Shown in pieces: positions 1,597 through 6,172 of a stretch of 27,493 nucleotides of DNA. Positions within the stretch are counted from its first letter, which is position 1; each line of letters begins with the position of its first letter. Under the pieces are notes generated by a model. The model did not search any database. It saw nothing but the letters and a program-made list of their open reading frames with translations, and had not been told where the DNA came from. Where the stretch lies: the IMG/VR virus record IMGVR_UViG_3300042291_000623, positions 1 to 27,493 of that record. One strand, given 5' to 3'. This DNA is from a virus. The position numbers and the translations under genes were made by a program.

Positions 1597-1625
1597 TTTA
1601 CATTTGGCTACAAATAGTGTATAAT
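1597..1625 (+). promoter_or_regulatory. Sigma-70-type promoter
   Basis: TTTACA (1597-1602), a 17-nt spacer, TATAAT (1620-1625). The predicted start near 1632 leaves a leader of about 18 nt before the ATG at 1650. Read-through past the weak hairpin at 1838-1861 would carry this transcript into the amidase gene. Confidence 0.75.
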
Positions 1626-1649: not shown

Positions 1650-1850
1650 ATGACCACATTAGAAAAACAACTTGCCGATCGTAAAGCCCTTATTATTACT
1701 CTTGCACAACGTCATGCAGCAGATCGCAGCCTTTGTAAGTCCGTAGAATCTGCGAAATATGACGAAAGTAAAAATCAATATGAAGATGCAGTAGCTGAAG
1801 AATATCAGCGTGCTCTAAAGTCTTCAACATTCAATCCACTCTCTGCTTAA
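1650..1850 (+). CDS. Small hypothetical phage protein (66 aa)
   Basis: The ATG at 1650 (MTTLEKQLADRK) is preferred to an upstream in-frame GTG at 1617, because that GTG precedes the expected transcript start. The product is charged and alanine-rich, with a likely helical run from LEKQLADRKALIITLAQRH to a second stretch YEDAVAEEYQRALKS. No domain is recognised, and no signal or membrane segment is present. It lies between an early-type promoter and the late-promoter-driven amidase. Its stop codon is in the loop of a hairpin (1838-1861). I do not recognise a family. Confidence 0.6.
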   Translation: MTTLEKQLADRKALIITLAQRHAADRSLCKSVESAKYDESKNQYEDAVAEEYQRALKSSTFNPLSA

Positions 1851-1863
1851 CCGCAGAGAGTTT
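1838..1863 (+). terminator. Weak or leaky hairpin terminator overlapping the stop codon
   Basis: ACTCTCTGC (1838-1846) pairs exactly with GCAGAGAGT (1853-1861). The 6-nt loop holds the TAA stop. Only three T follow, so termination is probably partial; it may instead be an mRNA-stabilising hairpin. Confidence 0.45.
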
Positions 1864-1908
1864 CTCGTATAAATAACAGTAGAAAAATACTGTTATGTCA
1901 TACGAGAA
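1862..1908 (+). promoter_or_regulatory. Hairpin trapping the amidase start codon (T4 gene e-like translational block)
   Basis: Outer stem: TTCTCGTAT (1862-1870) pairs with ATACGAGAA (1900-1908). Inner stem: AACAGTA (1875-1881) pairs with TACTGTT (1888-1894) with a 6-nt loop. The ATG (1895-1897) lies in the internal loop between the stems. The late promoter box 1868-1875 is embedded in the left side, and a late transcript would begin near 1881. Only transcripts coming from upstream can therefore fold the full structure; the late mRNA lacks the left arms. Confidence 0.7.
1868..1875 (+). promoter_or_regulatory. T4-type late promoter for the amidase
   Basis: Exact TATAAATA, 19 nt before the amidase ATG. 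The expected transcript start is about 6 nt downstream, near 1881. Confidence 0.8.
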
Positions 1909-6164: not shown

Positions 6165-6172
6165 TATAAATA
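6165..6172 (+). promoter_or_regulatory. T4-type late promoter upstream of gene 32
   Basis: Exact TATAAATA, 7 nt after the gene 59 stop and about 130 nt before the gene 32 start. It would allow late expression of gp32 in addition to the early-type promoter at 6214. Confidence 0.65.

Follow-up and report, generated by a model that had tools for sequence, protein, structure and literature searches.

A hairpin over the endolysin start of an environmental T4-like phage as a probable T4 gene e-like timing switch

What determines when a phage endolysin gene is translated, if transcripts running on from an early unit can reach it before lysis is due? A stretch of viral DNA of 27,493 nt (IMG/VR record IMGVR_UViG_3300042291_000623, hereafter the window) raises this question, as one of its inverted repeats straddles the start codon of an N-acetylmuramoyl-L-alanine amidase and also holds a T4-type late promoter box. 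The original prediction for this locus was a hairpin that hides the amidase start in early transcripts and is missing from the late one. The best reading of our data is a timing switch of this type, which probably works like that of T4 gene e.

The first 22,230 bases of the window match one end of a 100.8-kb IMG/VR contig (G1) at 99.996% identity. Among the T4-type genes that the window carries are those for a single-strand DNA-binding protein and a baseplate wedge protein. Searches of isolated phages for near-identical DNA and proteins returned no match, a scan of bacterial genomes returned distant amidases only, and an Rfam search of the window matched no family.

A hairpin straddling the amidase start

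The inverted repeat spans 47 bp and forms a hairpin of 18 bp in total, with two 9-bp stems separated by an asymmetric 2x3 interruption (Table 1). The outer stem is as originally described, while the inner one had been given as 7 bp and is in fact 9 bp long. The ATG had likewise been placed in the internal loop, which holds for its G only, as the A and T are paired within the inner right arm. The hairpin is confirmed as real and far beyond chance, with a minimum free energy for positions 1862-1908 of -20.5 kcal/mol, compared with -4.1 +/- 2.0 in 200 dinucleotide shuffles (z = -8.1), none of which is as good. The paired region covers -33 to +14 relative to the AUG, approximately the width of an initiating ribosome, and the 101-nt region that includes the adjacent hairpin at 1838-1861 reaches -37.6 kcal/mol. 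The amidase itself has an N-terminal MSY that is kept in relatives, and the prediction that it lacks a Shine-Dalgarno sequence is borne out, with none present upstream of the ATG.

Table 1. Positions of the features around the amidase start, in window coordinates
Feature	Position	Strand	Sequence or basis
Early sigma70-type promoter, drives the small upstream gene	1597-1625	+	TTTACA-N17-TATAAT, 11/12 matches
Small gene, 66 aa, early unit just 5' of the amidase	1650-1850	+	ORF
Terminator-like hairpin	1838-1861	+	ACTCTCTGC-TTAACC-GCAGAGAGT; 9-bp stem, weak U-tract TTCTC behind
Outer stem, left arm	1862-1870	+	TTCTCGTAT, 9 bp with ATACGAGAA
T4-type late promoter box, within the left arms	1868-1875	+	TATAAATA, motif match
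Inner stem, left arm	1873-1881	+	ATAACAGTA, 9 bp with TACTGTTAT, loop GAAAAA
Predicted late transcription start	1881	+	sixth base past the box, +/-1-2, from T4 spacing
Inner stem, right arm	1888-1896	+	TACTGTTAT, includes A and T of the start codon
Endolysin, N-acetylmuramoyl-L-alanine amidase (Amidase_2), 250 aa	1895-2647	+	Pfam PF01510, E 2e-15; PHROG endolysin
Outer stem, right arm	1900-1908	+	ATACGAGAA, inside codons 2-5

The early promoter that had been proposed at 1597 is present and belongs to a motif family. Specifically, TTTACA-N17-TATAAT has 15 exact copies on the coding strand of the 100.8-kb contig and none on the other strand (shuffle mean 0.03). Copies in the window lie at 545, 1597, 2829, and 6214, and are often followed by AAtCTGTAAC, a common downstream context. 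Because a member of this strong promoter family sits at 1597, read-through RNA into the amidase is plausible. The small gene that this promoter drives has a homologue in another contig of the clade (G14, E 6e-13) and no match in Pfam or PHROG, and its stop codon sits in the loop of the terminator-like hairpin. Given that stop codon and a tract of only TTCTC, this upstream hairpin may terminate poorly while the small gene is being translated; it could also stop most read-through already, with little left for the start hairpin to do. A nearby early-type unit is closed by a terminator (511-540) whose T-run is clear.

Late promoters and the cost of opening the start

The late box had been predicted to lie within the left side of the hairpin, and TATAAATA is indeed found there. 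We surveyed such boxes at no more than 20 nt before an ATG in 11 contigs (G1, G2, G3, G4, G5, G6, G8, G12, G14, G15, and G16). A box is present at 233 gene starts, with a gap of exactly 5 nt in 102 and of 6 nt in 44 (146 at 5-6 nt), and the reverse-complement control is flat, with at most 28 in all and none at 5-6 nt. A reversed box was dropped as a control since ATAAATA is palindromic when read backwards, and the reverse complement was used instead. Boxes of the window with this gap are found at 6165, 11322(-), 11790, 16089, 18954, and 23185. The box class is a T4-type late promoter, positioned at a constant distance from gene starts.

With the spacing of T4 late promoters, boxes 5-6 nt before the ATG place it at +1 or +2 across the clade, and so predict late mRNAs that look leaderless or nearly so. 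Only 1 of 208 late starts has a Shine-Dalgarno sequence, which is also rare elsewhere, and this makes access to the start codon a natural point of control. The gap at the window amidase is unusual for the clade, at 19 nt (a 14-nt leader). A degenerate late-box-like sequence, GAAAAATA, lies at 1882-1889, exactly 5 nt 5' of the amidase ATG, which is the usual place in relatives; it may be a second late promoter, or one that has decayed.

Opening bases -6 to +9 around the ATG costs 15.9-19.5 kcal/mol in long RNAs, among them the complete early RNA starting at 1632 (the RNA start expected for the promoter at 1597), and 1.8-3.8 kcal/mol in late RNAs. By 5' end, the cost is 10 at 1868, 5.8 at 1876, 2.5 at 1878, and 1.8 from 1880 onward, meaning that the switch falls between 5' ends 1864 and 1879 and that no occlusion is left for starts at or beyond 1878. 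No significant structure is seen in the late RNA that starts at 1881 (z = +0.8). Folding of the long and late transcripts, which had been put forward as a check, thus agrees with the prediction: the start is occluded in long RNA and open from the predicted late start. In the same calculation, the T4 e control (AF158101) goes from 15.2 in long RNA to 2.6 in late RNA. Shuffles of the upstream part give P = 0.003 for the window and T4 e alike, the minimum attainable with 300 shuffles, and shuffles with the late box held fixed give P = 0.033 (window) and 0.013 (T4 e). Ranked by opening cost, the amidase start comes second of 786 gene starts from 11 related contigs, behind only the amidase of locus L111, and no other start in the window phage is as strongly occluded.

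In the mechanism we propose, promoter identity would decide whether the endolysin is translated, by way of an RNA hairpin that occludes the start. Read-through RNA from the early unit would carry both arms, such that 1862-1908 would be locked and no early amidase made. The hairpin at 1838-1861 might act as a first, leaky barrier of the terminator kind, opened by ribosomes finishing the small gene, and the start hairpin would begin just past such a ribosome. A T4-type late polymerase would then start at approximately 1881 from the box at 1868-1875, and its RNA, lacking the left arms and unstructured at the start, would be translated from a 14-nt A-rich leader without a Shine-Dalgarno sequence. 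We infer the read-through and late transcripts, the late 5' end near 1881, and the translational effect from the sequence and its computed folds.

Lysis genes in related phages

The same nested repeat had been expected before the endolysins of related phages, and this expectation stands in part: the two nearest relatives (G1 and L002) are identical to the window across the hairpin, and the exact hairpin is known in identical copies only, with no compensatory change in its arms, while different hairpins recur at several other endolysins and some have none. Specifically, among the 19 distinct amidase loci that have a late box, 6 are occluded at P <= 0.03 (the window, L111, L084, L080, L096, and L095), and 13 show no significant start occlusion. 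Endolysins are thus occluded more often than other late genes (6/19 vs 14/219, P = 0.002; P = 0.008 without the window), the 14 of 219 non-lysis late genes at P = 0.05 being approximately the chance rate. A Fisher P of 4e-5 for lysis genes was set aside, as some contigs had been picked once their own hairpin had been noticed.

The L111 amidase has a perfect 21-bp stem (-26 kcal/mol), and its opening cost falls from 24.3 in long RNA to 2.8 in late RNA; here, the late box extends from the left arm over the loop, and the right arm contains the ATG. Hairpins over both late box and ATG are also found at the amidases of L084 (12.7 to 2.2), L080 (10.3 to 0.9), and L096 (10.1 to 1.0). The arm sequences of these relatives differ, so the hairpins are either independent or fully diverged. 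No early promoter was found within 2 kb upstream of the L080, L084, and L111 amidases, and for this reason read-through at these loci is assumed.

Other relatives have a terminator instead. Single-protein searches for near relatives of L111, L084, and L080 yielded L108/L109 as the only informative sister, and L108, whose amidase is 76% identical to that of L111, has an intrinsic terminator roughly 13 nt upstream of the ATG, where L111 has its hairpin. In 5 further phages (L067, L072, L078, L079, and L081), a strong terminator (GAGGCATATC..GATATGCCTTTTTG fused to TATAAATA in the L067 type) lies directly before the late box that heads the lysis cassette, approximately 600 nt upstream of the amidase. 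Behind this box come a small membrane protein, two spanin-like genes, and the amidase, which shows no start occlusion. In G2 (L080, 586 nt before the amidase) and at G12 16300(-), a small membrane-protein gene of the lysis cassette likewise has its start base-paired in long RNA, in a fold that also holds the late box (P = 0.01 each). The small membrane proteins of the lysis cassette are taken as holins from their size and place in the cassette only, and PHROGs assign them to a family of unknown function.

Some structures elsewhere in the clade deserve mention in their own right. In G1, a holin-like gene whose late box lies at 33215 of the reverse complement, with a box-ATG gap of 37 nt, has an 8-bp hairpin (TTTGAGAA/TTCTCAAA) that spans the predicted late start, and the late mRNA would begin with most of this hairpin. 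A perfect 36-bp palindrome, GTCCCGGGAGATCACACGCGTGTGATCTCCCGGGAC, at approximately 29375-29410 of the reverse complement and outside the window, is the strongest hairpin of the same contig. Homing-endonuclease genes with a late box show start occlusion in 2 of 8 cases (rank test P = 0.008); the genes of this kind that lean toward occlusion (HNH, and one GIY-YIG-like) are at G3 14888(-), G15 174(-), and G1 59578(-).

These patterns suggest that lysis genes repeatedly need to be shielded from early read-through and that different local structures serve this end. We tentatively propose, as a possibility somewhat short of an even chance, that in this T4-like clade with (near-)leaderless late mRNAs free of Shine-Dalgarno sequences, barriers around the late promoter (start hairpins or terminators) would have arisen repeatedly to shield lysis genes from early read-through. 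The window would be one such case, with transcription of the 5' arm as the only determinant of when its (near-)leaderless translation occurs.

Alternative readings and known systems

Three other readings of the locus were weighed against the timing switch. The main role of the two contiguous hairpins might be to halt or destabilise read-through RNA, whether through termination, pausing, or cleavage by RNase III, with start occlusion being secondary. The hairpin at 1838-1861 does abut the late box much as the real terminators of relatives do (GAGGCATATCATTTTTTGATATGCCTTTTTG-TATAAATA; L108, L092, and L095), and its 9-bp stem is followed by TTCTC. However, this tract is a broken one and no U-tract follows the hairpin at 1862-1908, an intrinsic-terminator scan lists neither hairpin, and a terminator would have no use for pairing that involves the start codon and codons 2-5, all of which makes this reading unlikely.

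It is very unlikely that the hairpin has no regulatory role, having arisen by chance or from an inverted repeat inserted between the late box and the ATG. At 19 nt instead of the usual 5-6, the gap between the two does look as if 13-14 nt had been added, the nearest amidase relatives carry no hairpin, and 27 stretches of similar folding energy occur in 100 kb of this phage, many of them terminators. Against this stand the rank of the structure as the strongest start occlusion of the phage, its exact relation to the late start and ATG, and the recurrence of similar structures at other endolysins. Less credible still is a DNA element (operator or cruciform) acting on the late promoter itself, which we regard as highly improbable: the late box does lie within the repeat, and a symmetrical DNA site and an RNA stem are indistinguishable by sequence alone, but the 47-bp repeat has an asymmetric interruption, and the other lysis hairpins share no common sequence or spacing, unlike a protein site. 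To our knowledge, T4-type late promoters do not use operators.

The T4 e-like timing switch, the reading we favor, has a well-described precedent. In T4, a hairpin over the initiation region of the lysozyme gene e blocks translation of early transcripts (McPheeters et al. 1986, reviewed in PMC3014915). The computed predictions support the same logic in the window: the long RNA is occluded, with a stable stem over the initiation region (z = -8.1, 19.5 kcal/mol), the late RNA would be open and without the 5' strand (late box at 1868-1875, predicted start at 1881), and an early promoter lies upstream. As in T4 e, the gene encodes a lysis enzyme and the late promoter sits in the 5' strand of the hairpin, and the effect is of the same size in the same calculation. 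By contrast, the window has an amidase instead of a lysozyme and no sequence kinship with T4 e, its occlusion involves the AUG and early codons as there is no Shine-Dalgarno sequence, its hairpin has two stacked 9-bp stems and one late box where T4 e has two, and a terminator-like hairpin lies directly upstream. A homologue of the T4 e leader is ruled out by the missing Shine-Dalgarno sequence, the PF01510 amidase, the different arms, and the lack of an Rfam match. The classic lysozyme timing switch would thus be carried to an unrelated endolysin, in environmental phages that do without Shine-Dalgarno sequences.

Hairpins also hide the initiation region in longer transcripts of T4 soc, gene 49, I-TevI, and Aeh1 mobE, and the late promoter of I-TevI lies close to the 5' strand of its hairpin (PMC3014915). 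The window hairpin resembles these in what it hides in longer RNA and differs in the function of the gene, while the homing-endonuclease genes of the clade lean toward start occlusion as I-TevI and mobE do. Within the clade, the terminators that precede late promoters in L108 and before the lysis cassettes of the L067-type phages have the same position and the same presumed job of keeping early transcription out. These terminators would act on transcription, whereas the window hairpin would act on translation.
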